Shown here piece by piece: positions 22,419 through 35,411 of a DNA stretch of 64,000 bases. This DNA comes from Methylococcales bacterium. GTDB lineage: Bacteria; Pseudomonadota; Gammaproteobacteria; Methylococcales; Methylomonadaceae. Within the stretch, counting starts at the first letter, position 1, and each line of letters opens with the position of its first letter. The notes under the pieces were generated by a model, which did not search any database, was not told the origin of the DNA, and saw only the letters and a program-made list of their open reading frames with translations. The position numbers and the translations under genes are program-made. The stretch spans positions 1 through 64,000 of the forward strand of contig JAGLDH010000122.1 of the NCBI GenBank assembly GCA_023145835.1. The letters run 5' to 3'.

Positions 22419-24203
22419 TTAGATTCTCATCGAGCCCCCATCAAATAGTGGCACTGTCATAGAAAAGTTTTCCCCAAATGTTAACTTTTGTTCTTCAAGA
22501 ATCCCAATCGCAATTTGTTCTCCCATACGTAATGACTCGATGTAATCGGTAAAATAATGTACACCAGCCCAGTCTCGCCCAGTGGATATATTTGATGCGA
22601 GCTTATTAAGCTCCCCCTCCACAGTCAGTTTTCCACCCACCACAGGTACTTTAATCAAGCATGATCCATCTGACTCAGGAACAAAAGCAGTAGTATCGTC
22701 CCCTGCCATATTGAGTGGATGCTTGTGATCAAAAAATGCTTTTATAATCGTGACACACGCCCCAGCAACTGTAGCATGACCTGCACCGTAGGAAGGGTGC
22801 ATGGGTGATCCTTCACAAAATGCCATCGGCAATAAATAATTGCCCTGTTTTAATTTTGAATCTTGAGGGTTTTTAGCATCGATCATATTCAAGATGGGTT
22901 GAAGTGCGTTTACCATCGTATCAATTTCACTCACCCCCAGGCATTTATGCTTGGTTAGTCTTGCAGCTAGGGCTTCCGGTCTCAATCGACGGTGAGTATT
23001 AAACTTCTGATACCTAACTGCCTTGAGCGCACGGGTTGCTACCTCTGTTAACAGTGATAGGACATGAGGCCCACCAAAATGGGCAAAACCCTGTTGATGG
23101 TCAATATAATCATCTTGTTGAAACGGTAAACCTGGATCAAATGGAATTCCTTCCCCCAAGAGTATCAGGCATGCATTGAGGTAAGATTCATATAGTGCAT
23201 CGTAATGTACATAGGTTGCCATATCTCTAGGTGTCGTAATAAACCGGTAAGCCGGCTTATTTTCATATGACTCCATCCCACCCAAGTTAGCGCCTTCCTG
23301 TACATCCAACCATTCGTCCCAATGAGTCATATGATCCTCACAAGGTTTTGCATAACGCACACGTTGATCCGCTCGAATAGCACCATACGAAATAAATCCA
23401 TGAGAACGCTTATTAATGGTATCGTTAGAATTTACCCCTCGATTACCAACTAATAAAAACTGTGAAATATAAGGTCCGATTTCATCTCCAGGAGTAATAC
23501 CTCTAAATGCAGTCTGTCCTGTCAAAGTACCACGTTTACGACTCACTTCGTTAACGTTTAACGAGCAACAATTATCAGACTTAAACCAAGTTAGTTGATT
23601 AAGTTCTTTTAGAACACTATTAACAGTTATCGATTTGGTTTTACCTGGAGCAGTATATTTACAAGAGACTTTACCTTTGCAATTGACAATTTCTGTAAAA
23701 GGAATATCTCTTAACAATGCTTGAGCATAAACCTCACCCATCTCTGCGATCAACTCGTCACTACCTATAACTGGGGCTGGTGGCATCGTGACAGCATGAG
23801 AATCGGGCCCTTCCAAATCATAAGTCTGACCAGCTCCCTGACTCTCCCAAGCACGTACTTTAGCCTTAGCTTTTTTAGCCTTATTAGACCGCCAATCAGG
23901 GGTTTCTTCAGTACCAGCAATTGGTCCTAAGGGTGTATCAATAAAATCTCTTGGATCTCCACTATCAATACCTTTTACAAATAGTTGAAAGTCATTCGGA
24001 TTTAATACTAAGCCAGTCATTTCACAATGAGGCATTCCTTTGGTGAAGCTTGCCAAATAGGATGGCATATTTTTCCTATTAACAACTCGACGAAACTTCT
24101 GTTCATCTCCGTTTGTGATATGGAGAGGATGTACTCGGTTATAGGCAAGATCAGCAGCAGATATCCGAGTTTGCTGCGCAGCTACTTTTCTATTGATATT
24201 CAT
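22419..24203 (-). CDS. Vanadium-dependent haloperoxidase (bromoperoxidase-like)
   Basis: Predicted to oxidise halide with hydrogen peroxide, using vanadate. The 594-aa product has no signal peptide. The active-site pattern of the algal/cyanobacterial bromoperoxidase group is present in order: K400 with R408 in KFNTHRRLRPEA (spacing of 8 as in the Ascophyllum enzyme), SPMHPSYGAGHATVAGA with H476 as the acid/base, and GRDWAGVHY with R543 and H549 (spacing of 6). The vanadate-contacting Ser of the PSGH form is Ala 474 here (YGAGH). The N-terminal 100 residues are the usual leader of this family. Transcribed alone, convergent with ubiB. Enzyme class is likely, but halide preference and activity are not shown. 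Confidence 0.87.
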   Translation of the reverse strand: MNINRKVAAQQTRISAADLAYNRVHPLHITNGDEQKFRRVVNRKNMPSYLASFTKGMPHCEMTGLVLNPNDFQLFVKGIDSGDPRDFIDTPLGPIAGTEETPDWRSNKAKKAKAKVRAWESQGAGQTYDLEGPDSHAVTMPPAPVIGSDELIAEMGEVYAQALLRDIPFTEIVNCKGKVSCKYTAPGKTKSITVNSVLKELNQLTWFKSDNCCSLNVNEVSRKRGTLTGQTAFRGITPGDEIGPYISQFLLVGNRGVNSNDTINKRSHGFISYGAIRADQRVRYAKPCEDHMTHWDEWLDVQEGANLGGMESYENKPAYRFITTPRDMATYVHYDALYESYLNACLILLGEGIPFDPGLPFQQDDYIDHQQGFAHFGGPHVLSLLTEVATRALKAVRYQKFNTHRRLRPEALAARLTKHKCLGVSEIDTMVNALQPILNMIDAKNPQDSKLKQGNYLLPMAFCEGSPMHPSYGAGHATVAGACVTIIKAFFDHKHPLNMAGDDTTAFVPESDGSCLIKVPVVGGKLTVEGELNKLASNISTGRDWAGVHYFTDYIESLRMGEQIAIGILEEQKLTFGENFSMTVPLFDGGSMRI

Positions 24204-25153: not shown

Positions 25154-25486
25154 ATGCTTGAACCTGTTGCCTTAAAAGACTTTTTTATTACCTTTTTCTC
25201 TTCAGCTTTGATTGTTATGGCTGGGGCAAGTTATGCTCTTCTTTTTGCTTGGTCTAAAGTTAAACCAAGATTGAGTATCAAACTATCAGCTTACATTTCT
25301 TATTTAATTCTACTTATTTCAGTATACCAATTAACTCTTGCGGCTAACCTCGATGGTTACTGGCGAATAATCTCATATCTTATGGTCATTGGTTATTTTT
25401 TTGCTCCTATTGCTATCTGGCATTTATGTAAATCAACTCATGACGAATCCGATTTAATAACACCCTTGGAGAAAAATAATGAGTGA
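25154..25486 (+). CDS. Three-helix membrane protein coupled to norC
   Basis: A 110-residue inner-membrane protein with three hydrophobic helices (about 9-33, 46-64 and 70-92) and a charged cytoplasmic or periplasmic tail. It overlaps the norC start by 8 bases, so it is translationally coupled to the NO reductase genes. I do not recognise the family with certainty. It is not NorE (COX3-like, larger) or NnrS. Its position as the first gene suggests a role in assembly or stability of the NorCB complex. Confidence 0.6.
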   Translation: MLEPVALKDFFITFFSSALIVMAGASYALLFAWSKVKPRLSIKLSAYISYLILLISVYQLTLAANLDGYWRIISYLMVIGYFFAPIAIWHLCKSTHDESDLITPLEKNNE

Positions 25487-26078
25487 AAACCCTCAATGGG
25501 CTTCCGAGTCTTTTTGGAAAAAAGTAGCCGTTTGGGTAACAGCAGGCTCTTTTTTAATTCTGGTTGTTTTAACCTTCGATACATTAAAACAAACTTCTGC
25601 AGGTGGAGATCGAGTCCCTGCTTATTCAGTTATTAATAAAAAAATTGACTATCAGTTTGATAAAAAACTAAATAAATTTATGCCTATTATTGATGGCGAA
25701 GAATTATTATTTGGTAAAGAATTTAGCGAAGAAGAGGCAGAACAACTCGTCACACTAGGTAAAAAAACAACTCAGGCTAAAAACTGTATGAATTGCCATA
25801 CTCTATTAGGCAACGGTGCTTATTTTGCACCTGATTTAACCAAGGCCTGGCTTGATCAAGGCTGGTTAACAGTTGGGCTACGTGAAGAACAAATGCTTAA
25901 ATTTCTAATGGATCCTGAAAAAAATGCGCGTACTTTTGGCACTGACCGAAAAATGCCTAACCTTGATATTACAAAAGAAGAAGCAAAAGGAATTGTTGCT
26001 TTCTTAAAATGGATGTCAAGTATTGATACAAATGGCTTCCCTTACAATTTCACAACTATTTACGCAGAGGATGACTAA
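25479..26078 (+). CDS. norC: Nitric oxide reductase cytochrome c subunit NorC
   Basis: Membrane-anchored cytochrome c that passes electrons to NorB. The 199-aa product has one N-terminal helix (about 15-33), a haem-binding CMNCH followed by TLLGNGAYFAPDLTKAWLDQGW, and a likely Met ligand in RKMPNLDI, ending in FLKWMSSIDTNGFPYNF as in known NorC. It is about 50 residues longer than Pseudomonas NorC (146 aa); the extra segment lies between the helix and CxxCH (about residues 42-88, DRVPAYSVINKK ... EEAEQL). The gene starts inside the preceding small gene and ends 2 bases before norB. Confidence 0.93.
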   Translation: MSENPQWASESFWKKVAVWVTAGSFLILVVLTFDTLKQTSAGGDRVPAYSVINKKIDYQFDKKLNKFMPIIDGEELLFGKEFSEEEAEQLVTLGKKTTQAKNCMNCHTLLGNGAYFAPDLTKAWLDQGWLTVGLREEQMLKFLMDPEKNARTFGTDRKMPNLDITKEEAKGIVAFLKWMSSIDTNGFPYNFTTIYAEDD

Positions 26079-26080
26079 TT

Positions 26081-27586
26081 ATGAGTGCTAACCCTGAAAC
26101 AGTTAAACAAAGCTCATCTTCGCTAAAAGATAAATTAGCCACTTTTCATTCCTGGGCAGCAGTAGATGACAGCACCTTAAATAAGGGTCAAAAATTAGCC
26201 GTAAAATACTTTATGGGGGCAGTTATTCTTTTTATCTTCCAAATTATATTTGGTTTATTAGCAGGAATACAATTTATTGCTCCAGGCTTTCTGTATGAAA
26301 TCCTAGATTTTAGTGTCAATCGTATGATTCATATTAATGCCATGATTTTATGGATGCTATATGGATTTATAGGCTGTACTTACTGGCTTTTAGAAGACGA
26401 GAGTGGTACTGAAATCGTTGGCTTAAAATATGGTGTTATAGGCTTCTGGGTACTCTCTGCTGCGATTACTATTGTGGTACTCGTTTATTTACTAATACAA
26501 ACAGGCGCAGGAAATGATACAACGTTATGGCTAATTAACGAAGGACGTGAATATATTGAAGCTCCTCGTTGGGCCGACATTGGTATAGTTGCAGTCATGC
26601 TAATTTTCTTCTACAACGTAGTAATGACGTTTAGTAAGGGAAAGTGGTCGGGGATTGCGGGCGTTTTAACATTAGACCTAGTCGCATTAGCAGGGCTGTA
26701 TGTTGCTGGGATGTTTTATATGACTAATATCACCCATGAGCAATTTTGGTGGTGGTGGGTTATTCATCTTTGGGTTGAAGCAACATGGGAAGTGTTGGTC
26801 GGTGTTATCATGGCTTGGTCACTCATGACCATTTTGGGGGTAAGTCGTAGAATTGTGACTACATGGTTATATATAGAAGTCGCATTAATGTTTGGCTCAG
26901 GAATATTAGGACTCGGCCACCATTATTTCTGGATAGGTACACCTGAATATTGGCTTACCATTGGTGGTTTTTTCTCCGCTTTAGAACCTATTCCTTTAGT
27001 CGCTATGGTTGTCCATGCCGTTTATGACTCTGGTGAACGTTCATTTAAAAATATGAACCACCCGGCAATGGCATGGCTAATTGCTCATGCATTTGGTAAC
27101 TTTTTTGGTGGCGGTGTTTGGGGATTCATGCATACCTTACCACAAATCAATTTATACACTCATGGAACACAATGGTCTGCCTCACATGGCCATTTTGCCT
27201 TTTTTGGAGCCTACGCAACTATTAACATCGCTTTCTTTTATATAGCAATTCAACACTGGCGAGGGAATGTTTGGATGGGTTCTAACTCACTAAACGAGTG
27301 GCGTTGGAAATGGGCATTAGCTTTATTAAATATTGGTGTAGTTGGTATGACTATTGCGCTCTTAATTGCTGGTTATGAACAATCCTTTATTGAACGCGCC
27401 ATAGGCGGATCAACTTGGGGCGGTTATTTTGCTGCGCAAACACACCCTTCATTTATGAGTGCCATGCATTGGCGAATGCTTTTTGGACTAGTAACTGCTG
27501 CAGGACTGGGTTTATTGGTTTGGGATTTATTGACTATTGGTAAAGGAGAAACACGTAAAGCTGAAATGATTATTCACTCAAAATAA
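26081..27586 (+). CDS. norB: Nitric oxide reductase catalytic subunit NorB (cNOR)
   Basis: Reduces 2 NO to N2O in the inner membrane, a haem-copper oxidase relative with a non-haem iron. The 501-aa product has 12 helices. Conserved residues are in place: RMIHIN for the haem ligand, HLWVEATWEV with both functional glutamates (the usual text is HLWVEGVWE), GLGHHYFWIG, FFSALEPIPL with the third glutamate, and ASHGHFAFFGAYA with the haem His pair. No N-terminal fused quinol-oxidase extension is present, so it uses NorC (cNOR, not qNOR). No norQ or norD follows; the next gene is convergent. Confidence 0.95.
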   Translation: MSANPETVKQSSSSLKDKLATFHSWAAVDDSTLNKGQKLAVKYFMGAVILFIFQIIFGLLAGIQFIAPGFLYEILDFSVNRMIHINAMILWMLYGFIGCTYWLLEDESGTEIVGLKYGVIGFWVLSAAITIVVLVYLLIQTGAGNDTTLWLINEGREYIEAPRWADIGIVAVMLIFFYNVVMTFSKGKWSGIAGVLTLDLVALAGLYVAGMFYMTNITHEQFWWWWVIHLWVEATWEVLVGVIMAWSLMTILGVSRRIVTTWLYIEVALMFGSGILGLGHHYFWIGTPEYWLTIGGFFSALEPIPLVAMVVHAVYDSGERSFKNMNHPAMAWLIAHAFGNFFGGGVWGFMHTLPQINLYTHGTQWSASHGHFAFFGAYATINIAFFYIAIQHWRGNVWMGSNSLNEWRWKWALALLNIGVVGMTIALLIAGYEQSFIERAIGGSTWGGYFAAQTHPSFMSAMHWRMLFGLVTAAGLGLLVWDLLTIGKGETRKAEMIIHSK

Positions 27587-27715: not shown

Positions 27716-28450
27716 TTAATTATCAGCATCAAAACCAGCTTTTGTGGCTTCATCGACCTCATCACCTGACTCAGCAAATGCATCTCCCCAATCTGGCTCT
27801 CCTTCAGTTTCTTCCTGATCAATAACCTGTTCTTTATTGTCGGAGCCTAAATCAGCTTTTGTAGCATCATCAACTTCATTTTCTGACTCAGCGAATGCAT
27901 CATCCTTATCAGGCTTTTCTTCCTGATCGTCTGAATCATTGTTTTGTTCTTCATCATCAGTCAAGTTTTCTTCAGCAGCCTTAGTCGTTTCGACTTTCTC
28001 CGAAGAGCTTTCTTCAACAGATTCCCTTTCATTATTAATGCTTTGCTCTACCACAGAAGGATCAATAATTGCTTCATTCTTAGTTGTGTTATCAGTGGGT
28101 ACAAAATATAAATACTGATCTAGTAATTCACATAGATTTTGATAAAAGTCAGTAACTGAGGCTCCTTCTATTTGTTGCTTCATAAATTGTTGCAGGAATT
28201 GTTTCTCCGCTTCAATCATGTATTCACCAGACTCTACAGCTTCTTCATTCTTAACAGCATATCCATCAACTAAATGTTGAACCAAATAAGCTTTTCGCTC
28301 ATTTTCTTTGTTATTGACAGTATCTAATAATATTACAAATTCAGCTAAAATAGCATTTTTCTTTTTCCATCGAAAATATAGTAATAAAGCAACAACGATT
28401 AAGCAAACAACAGCAATTTCAACTACCAAAATAATGAGCATAATGTTCAT
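27716..28450 (-). CDS. Membrane-anchored protein with acidic repeat tail, vWA operon
   Basis: A 244-residue protein, third of the vWA operon. One N-terminal helix (about residues 4-27) is followed by a helical region to about residue 115. From about 125 on the protein is very acidic and probably disordered. The tail has two copies of a 26-residue repeat, at about 180-205 and 219-244, with shared text DAFAESxxEVDxATKA. The second contains PDWGDAFAES, and such Asp-Trp-x-Asp-Ala-(Phe/Met)-Ala-Glu pieces occur as docking peptides in other bacterial proteins. The start ATGA overlaps the stop of the gene before it. I recognise no family. Confidence 0.7.
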   Translation of the reverse strand: MNIMLIILVVEIAVVCLIVVALLLYFRWKKKNAILAEFVILLDTVNNKENERKAYLVQHLVDGYAVKNEEAVESGEYMIEAEKQFLQQFMKQQIEGASVTDFYQNLCELLDQYLYFVPTDNTTKNEAIIDPSVVEQSINNERESVEESSSEKVETTKAAEENLTDDEEQNNDSDDQEEKPDKDDAFAESENEVDDATKADLGSDNKEQVIDQEETEGEPDWGDAFAESGDEVDEATKAGFDADN

Positions 28451-29085
28451 AGGTTCTCAATTTCAATATTTTTGATTGCCTGTCTAAGACGACCATCAGT
28501 ATTACGAAAAATTTCAAACATTTTCTTACTACTATTTTTTAATGCCAGTTCTGTTTGCGATCCACTAAACACTCGAGTATATTCTGCTATTATTTTCTCC
28601 ATTGAATCTGTTGTAATAACCAATTCTTTTCTTAAAGCAGCACTTTCTTGTTTAAGCCGATTGATTTCAATTTTTGCAATTTCCACTGCTTCCACCTCCT
28701 TATTTGAAGTAGAAATACCCGCTATGCTAATATACGGTTCTGCAAGATTATCGATATACTGGCCTATCTGCATCAACATATTTCCATCCTGACTTAAAAA
28801 TACTTGAATTATTTTCTTATACAACTCGCGCTCTTTACTGCCAATATTATTCATTATTTCATTTAATTCTCCCGGATCGACATCACACTGCGTGGCTATC
28901 ATTTCACCTCGCTTTATAGCATTATTTTTTTCTCCCTCTTTTAATTTATTAATTAATCCATGAGCAGCAGCGTGGTCACCTGAGTTTTTCTTTTCATATA
29001 CCATCAATAAAATCAATATGAGTAAAATTAAAACAACCATCGCTTCTACCATTAACAGAGTAGTTATTGAATTTAGTTCTATCAT
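28447..29085 (-). CDS. Membrane-anchored helical protein, vWA operon
   Basis: A 212-residue protein, second of the vWA operon. One N-terminal transmembrane helix (about 8-28, LLMVEAMVVLILLILILLMVY) precedes a long, mainly helical soluble part with coiled-coil character (EVEAVEIAKIEINRLKQESAALRKELV) at about 128-160. No catalytic motif is visible. It overlaps its neighbours on both sides by the four bases ATGA, so all three proteins are made in balanced amounts and probably form one inner-membrane complex. Family unknown; a short gammaproteobacterial lineage-specific family is likely. Confidence 0.7.
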   Translation of the reverse strand: MIELNSITTLLMVEAMVVLILLILILLMVYEKKNSGDHAAAHGLINKLKEGEKNNAIKRGEMIATQCDVDPGELNEIMNNIGSKERELYKKIIQVFLSQDGNMLMQIGQYIDNLAEPYISIAGISTSNKEVEAVEIAKIEINRLKQESAALRKELVITTDSMEKIIAEYTRVFSGSQTELALKNSSKKMFEIFRNTDGRLRQAIKNIEIENL

Positions 29086-30872
29086 TCTAATCTAGCCAAT
29101 AATTGAGCTTGCGCAGCCGCAGCTCTTTTTTTAAAAAATTTAAACAGAAAAAAACCAGCGAGAATAAAAACAATATTTATCCCTATTACTATCCCTACTG
29201 TATTCACCCAATCTATATCCTCGTCTTCTTCAAGAGTTTCATCTATCTCTTCTTCCTCATCCTCCAATTTATTCGATTCAGGTTCTTCTAAATCCTCATT
29301 TTGATCTTGAACAGTTTTCTTGGGTTTGGAAAACAAACGCTCATCAATAACGATTGGTTTAACATTAGGTGAAAGTGAGTCCCCCTTTAAAGAATTAGCA
29401 ATAATAGAGAAGTTTATGATTTTCTTACCTTCTTCTTCTGCCACATCATCTAACACAAGCACCCATGCATCATGTTTATTTATAAGATCATGAGTCTCAG
29501 TGGCCTGCCCAATTTGAGTAATACTTGCCTGAATACTCAACATTTCTGTGTTAATTATTTTTTTATCAGGAATAAGCTTAATAGTGATAGATCGGGACTT
29601 TTGGTCTACATCCATTTTTACAGTCATAAGACTCTTAACCACATCAATAGCTTGAACAAATTCTCTTTGAAATGTTTTACCATCCGCTTTTATTTTTATC
29701 GTGTACTTCCCTTTTCTTAGTAATGGTTTGTCTGTATTGTTAAACAACCCAACCTTTTCAGTATCAGCTTCCATTTTCCATTCATTTTTTTCTCCCTTTT
29801 CATTGATTAGTTCGACAGAAATATCAATTAAATTCAAAAAATCTTCTTGACTAATTAATTGATGTTTATCTGTAAAATAAGCATTTAAATCAATCGTATC
29901 TTGATCCGAAATATGATTAGGAATGTCCTCCACTTGAAGTTTTAAATCTGTCACAATCATAACTTGATTATCTGGATCCATTTCAGCCACTATTTTCCAC
30001 TTCCCTGCTTTTGTTTTTTTAATCGTGATCAAATCATAGTTTTTGTCACTTAACCAAGAAACATGTTCAGGTTTTTTAAATTCACTTATTTTCGTTTTAT
30101 CGGGAGAAATCAACTGTGTTGCTTTCCCTCCTTTTTTCTTAAAAAGAAGAACAGAAAACTCATCAACAGAACTATCAATAGTAAAACTATTCCCCGTTAT
30201 AGGCACAGTATCTGTTGGAATTGCTTGTTTAAATATTTTTAAAAAAATCTTCTGTAACTGCTCCGCATGCTGAACCGTTTCATTCCATCCATTGGTATCA
30301 AAAGCCAGTTTTTCTAACAACTCTGTATCAGCATTATCAGATAAAGCAATCGTATGTACTTTTACTCCTGTTTGCTGCAGTTGAGAAATTTGATCTATTA
30401 TTATTCGCTCCCTTGATTCAGCACTTTCCATAATATCTTTAGAAACATCAACCACCCCATCTGTTAATAAAATCAAATGTCGTGGATTATCTTCTGGTGC
30501 TTCAAACCATTTATTAGAAGATGTCTGTATGGCATCTTCAATATTCGTAAAAAGTCCTAATGAATGAATTTTCTTTATTTTAGATAAGGCCTTCTTTTTC
30601 CATGCTCTATTAACTACGCCAGTCTTAACTAACACCTTAGTTCTCTCAGCAAATAACCAAACCCCAGCTTGAGTGCCGTTTGGTAATAAATTAATAAGGA
30701 GTTTTAAGGCTGGTATTCGTAGGTTTTTTGGATCGTTATGCTTCATACTGCCAGACACATCAATCAATATCTGCAACTCAGAACTTAGCTCCTTAGTATC
30801 AGTTGCATGCCCAATTGAATAAGTCGCGACAAATAAAAAACAAATACTAAACCATCGTAATTTACTGTACAT
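29082..30872 (-). CDS. Exported von Willebrand factor A protein with C-terminal membrane anchor
   Basis: A 596-residue protein and first gene of an overlapping three-gene operon. A signal peptide (about residues 1-23) leads into a vWA domain (about 32-205) with an intact MIDAS: D38-x-S40-x-S42 (DVSGSM), a Thr (FTNIEDAI region) and LLTDGVVD. Beta-rich Ig-like or bacterial-surface-like segments occupy about 220-520, then an acidic stretch of Glu/Asp (about 535-553) and a transmembrane helix (about 558-580) with a basic cytoplasmic tail. This topology places the metal-ion-dependent adhesion domain in the periplasm, tethered to the inner membrane. It could be related to TIGR03503-type vWA proteins, but I am not sure. 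It is not NorD. Confidence 0.8.
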   Translation of the reverse strand: MYSKLRWFSICFLFVATYSIGHATDTKELSSELQILIDVSGSMKHNDPKNLRIPALKLLINLLPNGTQAGVWLFAERTKVLVKTGVVNRAWKKKALSKIKKIHSLGLFTNIEDAIQTSSNKWFEAPEDNPRHLILLTDGVVDVSKDIMESAESRERIIIDQISQLQQTGVKVHTIALSDNADTELLEKLAFDTNGWNETVQHAEQLQKIFLKIFKQAIPTDTVPITGNSFTIDSSVDEFSVLLFKKKGGKATQLISPDKTKISEFKKPEHVSWLSDKNYDLITIKKTKAGKWKIVAEMDPDNQVMIVTDLKLQVEDIPNHISDQDTIDLNAYFTDKHQLISQEDFLNLIDISVELINEKGEKNEWKMEADTEKVGLFNNTDKPLLRKGKYTIKIKADGKTFQREFVQAIDVVKSLMTVKMDVDQKSRSITIKLIPDKKIINTEMLSIQASITQIGQATETHDLINKHDAWVLVLDDVAEEEGKKIINFSIIANSLKGDSLSPNVKPIVIDERLFSKPKKTVQDQNEDLEEPESNKLEDEEEEIDETLEEDEDIDWVNTVGIVIGINIVFILAGFFLFKFFKKRAAAAQAQLLARLE

Positions 30873-33671: not shown

Positions 33672-35411
33672 ATGAGAAAGATATTTGAAACAGCTTTCAT
33701 CGTTACATTGGTATTTACTACCAAAATAGGCGCTTCAAAAACACTCGCCAACACTAAAAACCAATCATTACCCTCTGTGGATATTATTACCCGTTCGCTA
33801 CACAACAAAACGGCTTATATTCCACCACAATGTTATACAAAAACCGAGGATAAACAAGGTAATCTACATAATCCTTGTTTTTCCTGTCATACCCAAGCTA
33901 AGCGTCCAAATTTTATTAACGACTCTAACTTGCAACAAACCTATCGCTTTACCGATACAGCACGTAAAAACCCTTGGCACAATTTATTCAAAGACCGTAG
34001 TCAGGCAGTTGCGCAGATTAGTGATGAATCGATGATTCAATACATCCGAAAAAGCAATTATTTTGATGAACAAGGCTTAATAAAACTAACAAAAAAATTA
34101 AATCATGTACCCAAAAATTGGGATTATGATCATAATAGATACTGGGATGGATTTACCCCTGATGTCTGGTTTAATTTTGATAGTGAAGGGTTTGATCATG
34201 ATCCAGAAGGTAAATTAACTGGCTGGAGGGCATTTGGTTATTACCCTTACTTAGGGACTTTTTGGCCTACCAATGGTTCAACTGATGATGTCATGATTCG
34301 CCTAGCACCCGCCTTTAGAACTAACAGTAAGGGGAAGAATGATTTAGCAGTGTATAAAGTCAATCTGGCAATTATTGAATCCATGCTAAAAGAACAAGAT
34401 ATAACAATTGATCCAGTCGATGAAGCTAATTTTGACCATGTCGATTTAGATAAGAACGGGGAAATTGGCATTGCAACTAAAATTCATTATGACTGGGCAC
34501 CTGTAAAACAGCGTTTTATGTGGTACGTAGGACAAGCAAATATAGACCAAAAAGCAGGAAAATTACATTTAGCCGCAGGTTTATACCCTGAAGGTACTGA
34601 GTTTTTACATACTGTGCGTTACATTGATGTTGATGAGCAGGGCAATAATCACTTATCTTCTCGAATGAAAGAAGTTCGCTATGCTCGGAAACGTTTTTGG
34701 GTTAATTACTCCAAGCTAAAAGAAAAAGCACTAACAGAAATGAAGGAAAAGAATGATTTCCCCAATCGTTTACGCACAATAAGAGGTAATGCCGAAGTAG
34801 GTATTAGTAATGGGCAAGGCTGGGCATACGCAGCATTTATAGAAGATGCATTTGGAGAATTAAGACCACAAAATTATGAAGAACTCGTTTTTTGCGCAGG
34901 TTGCCATAGCGGTATAGGTTCAACTAAAGATGGTATCTTTTCATTCCAACGTAAGCTCCCTATAACGAGCCACCAACAAGGCTGGTTTCACTGGTCTCAA
35001 TTTGATTTAAAAAATATTGTTGAGCCACGTCGCCAAGATGGTAACTATGAATATAGCCATTATTTACAACAAAACAAATCCGCGAATGAGTTCAGAAATA
35101 ACCGAGAAGTACAGGATAAATTTTTTGACCAAAACAACAAGATCAAACCTGCCATGCTTAATCAATTACATAAAGATATTTCTTTATTACTCTACGCTTC
35201 AGAAAAACGCGCCTTACAATTGAATAAATCCTACCGTGTTATTGTTCAGGAACAAAGTTTTACTGAGGGGCGTGACGCAACAATAATACCGAGTAAAAAC
35301 ATTCATAAAGAAGTTGAACAAGATCAATCTACAGGTATTAAAGAGCCTATCTTTTTTAAGCCTTTATCTATCGAAAAAAGCACTAGTTTTATTAAACGCA
35401 CCGTTAAATGA
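33672..35411 (+). CDS. Exported diheme c-type cytochrome-like protein
   Basis: A 579-residue exported protein with two haem-binding motifs: CFSCH near residue 75 and CAGCH near residue 413. A signal peptide covers about residues 1-25. Between the haems there is a Ca-binding-like loop DLDKNGEIGIA (near 255-265). Otherwise the family is unknown to me. It is 82 bases downstream of the PhoX-family gene, with a short hairpin of seven base pairs between (near 33608-33635), so the two may share a transcript. A periplasmic redox or peroxidase-like role paired with the DUF839 protein is inferred. Confidence 0.75.
   Translation: MRKIFETAFIVTLVFTTKIGASKTLANTKNQSLPSVDIITRSLHNKTAYIPPQCYTKTEDKQGNLHNPCFSCHTQAKRPNFINDSNLQQTYRFTDTARKNPWHNLFKDRSQAVAQISDESMIQYIRKSNYFDEQGLIKLTKKLNHVPKNWDYDHNRYWDGFTPDVWFNFDSEGFDHDPEGKLTGWRAFGYYPYLGTFWPTNGSTDDVMIRLAPAFRTNSKGKNDLAVYKVNLAIIESMLKEQDITIDPVDEANFDHVDLDKNGEIGIATKIHYDWAPVKQRFMWYVGQANIDQKAGKLHLAAGLYPEGTEFLHTVRYIDVDEQGNNHLSSRMKEVRYARKRFWVNYSKLKEKALTEMKEKNDFPNRLRTIRGNAEVGISNGQGWAYAAFIEDAFGELRPQNYEELVFCAGCHSGIGSTKDGIFSFQRKLPITSHQQGWFHWSQFDLKNIVEPRRQDGNYEYSHYLQQNKSANEFRNNREVQDKFFDQNNKIKPAMLNQLHKDISLLLYASEKRALQLNKSYRVIVQEQSFTEGRDATIIPSKNIHKEVEQDQSTGIKEPIFFKPLSIEKSTSFIKRTVK

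Follow-up and report, generated by a model that had tools for sequence, protein, structure and literature searches.

The locus considered here lies on the minus strand of a 64,000-nucleotide stretch (hereafter "the window") of the genome of a Methylococcales bacterium of the family Methylomonadaceae (contig JAGLDH010000122.1, positions 1 to 64,000), where three genes run head to tail from position 30872 to 27716: one for a von Willebrand A (vWA) protein, followed by two smaller ones that are called B and C in what follows. A first-pass annotation had described three membrane-anchored genes joined by ATGA overlaps, and that description is sound, both junctions being read as ATGA; a chance origin of the arrangement is excluded by its conservation in many other genomes. 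What is new here is that the module tracks the flagellum, and that the acidic tails of its proteins carry peptides resembling the N-termini of FliM and FliN.

The first gene had been taken to encode an exported vWA protein with an intact metal-ion-dependent adhesion site (MIDAS) motif and a C-terminal anchor, and Pfam, an alignment of 66 sequences and a predicted structure all bear this out. In the alignment D38, S40, G41, S42 and T109 are each at least 90% conserved and D138 is invariant, while in the model a C-terminal helix of transmembrane length (residues 556-595; mean predicted local distance difference test score (pLDDT) 91.4) follows the beta domains after a stretch of low confidence. 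Fold searches with Foldseek return generic vWA proteins, including ANTXR2, and there is a likeness in layout to integrin-like and ANTXR receptors, which consist of a vWA domain, beta domains, one transmembrane helix and a cytoplasmic part; however, since none of the Foldseek template-modelling scores, taken by query length, exceeds 0.28, only the vWA fold is shared, and the resemblance is best read as an analogy rather than as whole-protein homology.

Gene B had been said to encode a coiled-coil protein, correctly so to judge from its model (mean pLDDT 90.3), in which an N-terminal transmembrane helix continues into a helical bundle and a coiled coil. Neither B nor C has any Pfam match over the cut-offs. 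As comparison of the B structure with the PDB gave no significant match (best Foldseek E 1.5; best VIA Z 8.2, over 66 coiled-coil residues), no claim is made as to its fold; a B profile run against PDB sequences finds coiled coils, designed helical proteins and transmembrane helices (best E 2e-4). C combines an N-terminal transmembrane segment with an acidic tail, and because profiles of B and of C each converge on 88 open reading frames (ORFs) that score with both, the two are paralogues. In each of them basic residues follow the transmembrane segment (YEKK in B, RWKKK in C), so that by the positive-inside rule the main parts of both should be cytoplasmic. The acidic tail of C had been described as two 26-residue repeats; two repeats are indeed present, but they are not clean units of that length, their starts lying 39 residues apart with 19 of 37 positions identical. 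Coordinates are collected in Table 1.

Table 1. Features of the module, all on the minus strand of the window.
Feature	Position	Strand	Description	Basis
vWA gene	29082..30872	-	596 aa, exported, membrane-anchored von Willebrand A protein	ORF, Pfam, alignment, structure model
Signal-peptide-like N-terminus of vWA protein	30801..30872	-	about aa 1-24	by eye; helix 2-20 in model
vWA domain	30243..30773	-	aa 34-210	Pfam PF00092, E 1.4e-15
MIDAS DVSGS	30747..30761	-	aa 38-42, then family signature MKxNDPxNLR	alignment
TIGR03503-like beta domains	29127..30209	-	3' of vWA domain	TIGR03503 matches 30209-29739 and 29717-29127
C-terminal transmembrane helix of vWA protein	29142..29207	-	about aa 556-577	structure model and sequence
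Gene B	28447..29085	-	212 aa; N-terminal transmembrane segment, helical bundle, coiled coil	
Transmembrane segment of B	28996..29070	-	about aa 6-30, then basic YEKK	by eye and model
Gene C	27716..28450	-	244 aa; B paralogue with acidic tail	
Acidic tail of C	27719..28063	-	about aa 130-244; two diverged repeats 39 aa apart	
FliN-like peptide DWGDAFAE in C tail	27770..27793	-	other two genome matches of the pattern are in FliN	
Degenerate first peptide copy DKDDAFAES	27884..27910	-	C aa 181-189	
ATGA overlap vWA/B	29082..29085	-		sequence read
ATGA overlap B/C	28447..28450	-		sequence read

Conservation was followed at several depths. Among 61 relatives the vWA protein is found in 25 at E<=1e-3, or in 24 once the match in genome G045 (7e-4 over 120 residues) is taken as a generic vWA match and excluded from later counts, while matches to TIGR03503 occur in 78 of the 274 genomes of a class-wide sample and in 40 of the 369 of a phylum-wide one, all 40 being from Gammaproteobacteria. 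Gene order was compared in two sets of loci, 86 fetched larger loci and 80 further ones, some of which are identical records to members of the 86. In the first set the vWA gene is followed, at 70 of the 86 loci, by a same-strand gene that its profile identifies as B/C-type; the other 16 comprise six where a one-transmembrane protein of the same layout, judged by eye, lies 2-42 bases downstream (L148, L149, L151, L152, L153, L155), three that stop at or near a contig end (L047, L111, L133), and seven with neither a B-type nor a same-layout gene (L060, L097, L105, L123, L143, L154, L156). In the second set three loci are truncated, 21 have two B-type genes, 52 have one and four have none, giving a same-strand downstream B-type gene at 73 of 77 non-truncated loci, with a first gap of at most 458 bases and the four-base overlap in use at 41 of the 73; the vWA proteins of the four loci without such a gene are 754-859 residues long and have acidic tails of their own. 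Two B-type copies are present at 19 of 26 fetched Methylococcales loci, as against none of 60 outside that order.

The defined, tightly coupled membrane module that had been proposed is thus conserved jointly in many genomes beyond its source, mostly as a vWA gene plus a B-type gene. What does not survive is the view of all three genes as the unit: the core is vWA plus B, and C is a lineage-specific duplicate carrying the tail. Among other carriers of the module is the methanotroph Methylomonas sp. LW13 (L173). A record titled Bacteroidetes bacterium (L180), probably mislabelled or a mixed bin, has a module with two B-type copies that resembles the one in Methylomonas sp. WSC-6 (L179).

The vWA protein as a whole matches TIGR03503, an NCBIfam hypothetical equivalog, with E 1.4e-41, the region after the vWA domain covering most of the profile (positions 2-158 and 182-372 of 374), and all 15 members of one alignment (A3) match it likewise, so that homology is evident. 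The score of 142.7 bits nevertheless falls below the curated cut-off of 305.6, making this a distant homologue only. In the 26 genomes with a member over the cut-off, the open frame is 408-518 residues long, and the one such protein inspected (L097 7185-8504) has no vWA signature and no B gene behind it. No paper on the TIGR03503 family was found among open-licence papers in PMC.

The distribution of the module is closely related to that of the flagellar switch protein FliM. In the class-wide sample 142 of 274 genomes have FliM, namely 73 of the 78 with the module as opposed to 69 of the 196 without it (both, 73; module only, 5; FliM only, 69; neither, 127; Fisher p 2.6e-20), and when a single random genome is drawn from each of 171 families the worst p in 500 draws is 6e-11. 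The 201 genomes of Methylomonadaceae, 33 of them with the module and 120 with FliM, give the same picture: FliM accompanies the module in 32 of 33 cases and is found in 88 of 168 module-free genomes (32/1/88/80 in the same order, p 2.9e-7), the exception, G375, being 73% complete. For the 61 relatives the figures are 23/1/14/23 (the one being G059), and six of the nine sampled genomes of the source genus have both while three have neither.

The first-pass annotation had seen in the module a candidate surface or stress sensor, and it might be supposed that it is a general periplasmic sensor unrelated to the flagellum, the apparent link reflecting no more than a free-living lifestyle. The three module-free genomes of the source genus are small (2.1-2.2 Mb), so that loss of the module may accompany genome reduction, and vWA domains and surface sensing are treated, for the type IV pili of Pseudomonas, in PMC9210963. 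Type IV pili were used as a control through PilM, which gives an odds ratio of 4.2 (p 1e-4) compared with 27 for FliM, implying that a weaker association of the module with these pili exists too; PilM is detected in 270 of 274 genomes at E<=1e-3 and in 202 over the cut-off, and its count in module genomes (70 of 78) was made by eye from best E. A general sensor is however unlikely, given that the FliM association survives reduction to one genome per family and exceeds that of PilM, and that peptides of FliM/FliN type are concentrated in the tails (see below). The sensor function originally claimed is, accordingly, probably wrong; it is not supported here, whereas the nesting of the module within flagellated genomes and the tail peptides point to the flagellum.

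A different possibility arises from FlhF, which is over the cut-off in 72 of 78 module genomes as compared with 65 of 196 others. The module might be a landmark for polar assembly, its tails binding FlhG or otherwise steering FlhF/FlhG so as to set the site and number of flagella, as FipA and HubP do, instead of acting on phosphorylated CheY (CheY-P) and switching. Like FipA and HubP/FimV, the proteins of the module are membrane proteins of polarly flagellated bacteria, but none of the three has a match at E<=1 to DUF2802 (the domain feature of FipA), LysM or FimV, and the module has instead a vWA domain outside. Moreover, within FliM-bearing genomes the tie between module and FlhF is not significant (p 0.20). 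FlhG is reported to bind the N-terminus of FliM in Shewanella (PMC12826062, PMC11236974), and FipA is described as a membrane protein that recruits FlhF together with HubP, the latter having an extended cytoplasmic region (PMC11236974); on the other side, FlhG in monotrichous species is described as binding FliM and not FliN (PMC12826062), and the motif in the source genus is FliN-like. This landmark role is possible though somewhat doubtful, and it should be understood as a branch of the flagellar interpretation set out below, with which its share of probability overlaps.

The second line of evidence comes from the tails. Many B-type proteins outside Methylococcales have long acidic tails, the extreme being a protein of 1595 residues in Methylophaga, and inspection by eye revealed in them DDIDALL and, later, repeats of DPWADALAEQ, which are reminiscent of the N-terminal sequences of FliM and FliN respectively. 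Since the motifs had been picked by eye, they were tested against shuffled sequences, using the 94 tails of more than 30 residues that 97 proteins provided (15,387 residues). The strict form [DE]IDALL occurs 12 times, in 7 tails (shuffle mean 0.00, maximum 1), a looser form 26 times, in 13 tails (0.86, maximum 4), and W..A[FLM].E 20 times, in 11 tails (0.08, maximum 1), while permuted or reversed forms occur there 0-1 times. For comparison, 877 neighbouring ORFs (307,780 residues) contain 3 strict, 14 loose and 3 W motifs, and 57 acidic windows of neighbour proteins contain neither the strict nor the W motif. A further 71 tails, which as members of the same class and partly of related genera are not fully independent, agree: the strict motif occurs 6 times in 3 tails (shuffle mean 0.01), the loose one 13 times in 9 (1.17) and the W motif 15 times in 7 (0.12).

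These controls bear directly on the idea that the tails, being acidic and of low complexity, give rise to such peptides by chance or through their composition, without any relation to the flagellum. It is true that 70 of the 94 tails show no clear motif, and that some tails expand as EPEAEPEA repeats. Nonetheless, shuffled tails almost never yield the motifs, both kinds of motif come from the same machine, and at two loci (L136 and, by a looser form of the motif, L126) the vWA protein's own tail has W-type peptides, as though it were the peptide that is kept and not its carrier; such an origin is therefore considered quite improbable. The likeness to FliM and FliN is confined to the DDIDALL and DWGDA[FL]xE peptides: B and C have no FliM or FliMN_C match in Pfam at E<=1, and the peptides stand towards the end of membrane-anchored proteins. 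Among the most extended examples seen are three B-type proteins of Methylophaga (L190, L195 and L203; 1595, 1167 and 872 residues) with long EVEAEPEVEAEP or similar acidic tails, that of L203 containing four DDIDALLASV repeats. Separately, a neighbour protein of 376 residues at two loci (L104 4100-5230, L106 12552-13682) has EIDALL near its N-terminus.

In the source genome itself the match can be followed at the level of single peptides. Its FliN (L159 16585-17070; Pfam-identified) has the N-terminus MSENEEEIGDDWGDAMEEQ, then ADWGDALKEQ, and its FliM (also Pfam-identified) contains LLSQDEIDALL; the tail of C reads EPDWGDAFAESGDE. When the 3.9-Mb genome is searched at the DNA level for DWG[DE]A followed by a hydrophobic residue, any residue and E, there are just three matches, one in C and two in FliN, against none for the reversed pattern; [DE]IDALL is found in FliM only. 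Across 12 genomes, moreover, the tail peptide fits the FliN of its own genome better than it fits re-paired FliNs (34.3 vs 29.1, p 0.002), a comparison that includes close relatives, that accepts the tail motif of G127 by a looser rule and from which G037 was dropped, its FliN having no motif. In G277 both tail and FliN have DPW. It was also observed that in the FliN of the source genome, of L165 and of L265 a DWGDAxxEQ-type peptide is present two to three times at the N-terminus; we know of no reported role for this repeated peptide, nor of any reported ligand for the FliN N-terminal peptide.

Taken together, we think it reasonably probable that this is a flagellum-associated envelope module, in which a vWA receptor is coupled to tails that capture a candidate ligand of the switch. 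The vWA part would be periplasmic and would use its metal site to bind a ligand in that compartment, transmembrane helices would join the vWA protein to B/C, and a cytoplasmic tail, acting like the flexible N-terminal tether of FliM, would capture a ligand of the switch complex, for which phospho-CheY or a related receiver, or alternatively the assembly ATPase FlhG, are the candidates. By competing for such a peptide ligand, or by concentrating it near the envelope, the tails could, under the control of the periplasmic receptor, make the switching of rotation, or else the number or position of flagella, respond to an event at the envelope. There is precedent for the binding partners: the FliM N-terminus is reported to bind CheY-P via EIDALL (PMC9126983) and may act as a flexible CheY tether (PMC7355467). 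A more specific version, advanced only tentatively, has an integrin-like vWA receptor in the periplasm present copies of the FliM/FliN docking peptides on a membrane-tethered tail. Such a tail would serve as a sink or relay for CheY-P or FlhG and so link contact at the envelope or with a surface to rotation or to the number of flagella, in much of the flagellated Gammaproteobacteria.

If these suggestions are correct, about half of the FliM-bearing genomes of the class-wide sample (73 of 142) carry an unrecognised envelope component that, by imitating the docking peptides of the C-ring, communicates with either the switch or the assembly ATPase of the flagellum. A route from envelope or surface events to the motor would then become directly testable, and the unstudied TIGR03503-like vWA proteins would have their first functional hypothesis.

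Several observations weigh against the flagellar interpretation. As 69 of the 142 FliM-bearing class-sample genomes are without the module, it can be an accessory at most. G141 (99% complete) has an intact module with neither FliM nor FlhF over the cut-off; the other FliM-less module genomes are G123 and G245 (85% and 81% complete, both with FlhF over the cut-off), G259 (64%) and G158, whose vWA gene is broken into two frames (L251 325-2126), as if decaying, a sequencing error being possible. Among 20 families discordant for FliM, both members are module-free in 14, which are uninformative, and of the six with the module only two (f125, f132) restrict it to the FliM-bearing member; f53 and f78 each have an incomplete genome as their FliM-less member, the copy in f106 is broken, and f89, the family of G141, does not fit. 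The association could look stronger than it is owing to common descent and a common lifestyle, the counts are uncontrolled for genome size, and the module-free genomes of the source genus are the smaller ones. No flagellar gene cluster was seen to contain the module, and no family dominates the 111 adjacent proteins, where Response_reg (5) and ABC_tran, redoxin, TPR, Sigma70 and PilZ (3 each) are the most frequent. Finally, a motif of either kind occurs in only 24 of the 94 tails, and the motifs were in the first instance chosen by eye.

As regards known systems, the module had been set apart from NorD, Bat and MoxR-vWA, and it does fail the tests used for each. It has in common with Bat and MoxR-vWA systems a vWA domain and membrane anchors, but the transmembrane helix of its vWA protein is C-terminal and comes after the beta domains; in the Bat-like proteins of this genome, by contrast, a hydrophobic stretch stands at the very start. 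Nor did a scan of 15 window proteins, those of the module and its surroundings, give any match to a MoxR-type (AAA_3) ATPase. MoxR-like (AAA_3) ATPases, for which a search elsewhere in the genome had been suggested, do occur together with vWA genes at two loci on other contigs (L062 4858-10016 and L063 6773-11367), one of them having also DUF58 and vWA-TPR proteins. A vWA chaperone system of MoxR/Bat type is on this evidence highly improbable. As for NorD, genes resembling norC and norB (by Pfam matches of cytochrome c and COX1 type; 25154-27586, opposite strand), preceded by a membrane ORF of 110 residues, adjoin the module, yet there is no NCBIfam NorD match at E<=1. Neither the norB nor the norC product matches anything at E<=1e-5 among the ORFs of the relatives' 86 loci (several of which are short), so that this neighbourhood looks incidental, with no conserved norCB linkage; together with the location of the MoxR loci on other contigs, this indicates neither a NorD nor a MoxR system. 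As a candidate for anti-phage defence the module was also rejected, no PADLOC model matching any of the three proteins at E<=0.01.

No published operon with such components was found in open-licence PMC papers, nor any description of the module in the literature there on vWA domains with the flagellar motor, chemotaxis or motility, which was covered partly as titles and opening lines of abstracts. The module is real and widely conserved, and is undescribed as far as that literature search reaches.

Outside Methylococcales, the 30 largest neighbour clusters include no recurring family except overlapping antisense ORFs and scattered receiver/GGDEF proteins. Single loci have a CheV-like (L123), a receiver-TPR (L105), a GGDEF (L144) or a PilZ (L107) neighbour; these are suggestive, although too few to use. 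In the first of them a gene for a CheW and receiver (CheV-like) protein (L123 10171-11112) comes after a long-tailed vWA gene that has no B gene. Within the window, two long ORFs (22422-24203, 594 residues, and 33672-35408, 579 residues) have no Pfam match at E<=1e-5. A redoxin gene, identified by Pfam, adjoins the vWA gene, and on the far side of C lie genes which, from their Pfam matches, we take to be hslU, ubiE, SCP2 and an ABC1-kinase (ubiB-like) gene. In the relatives' 86 loci an ABC1-kinase protein is present in 8 and redoxin in 10, three of them (L044, L046 and L056) having both.

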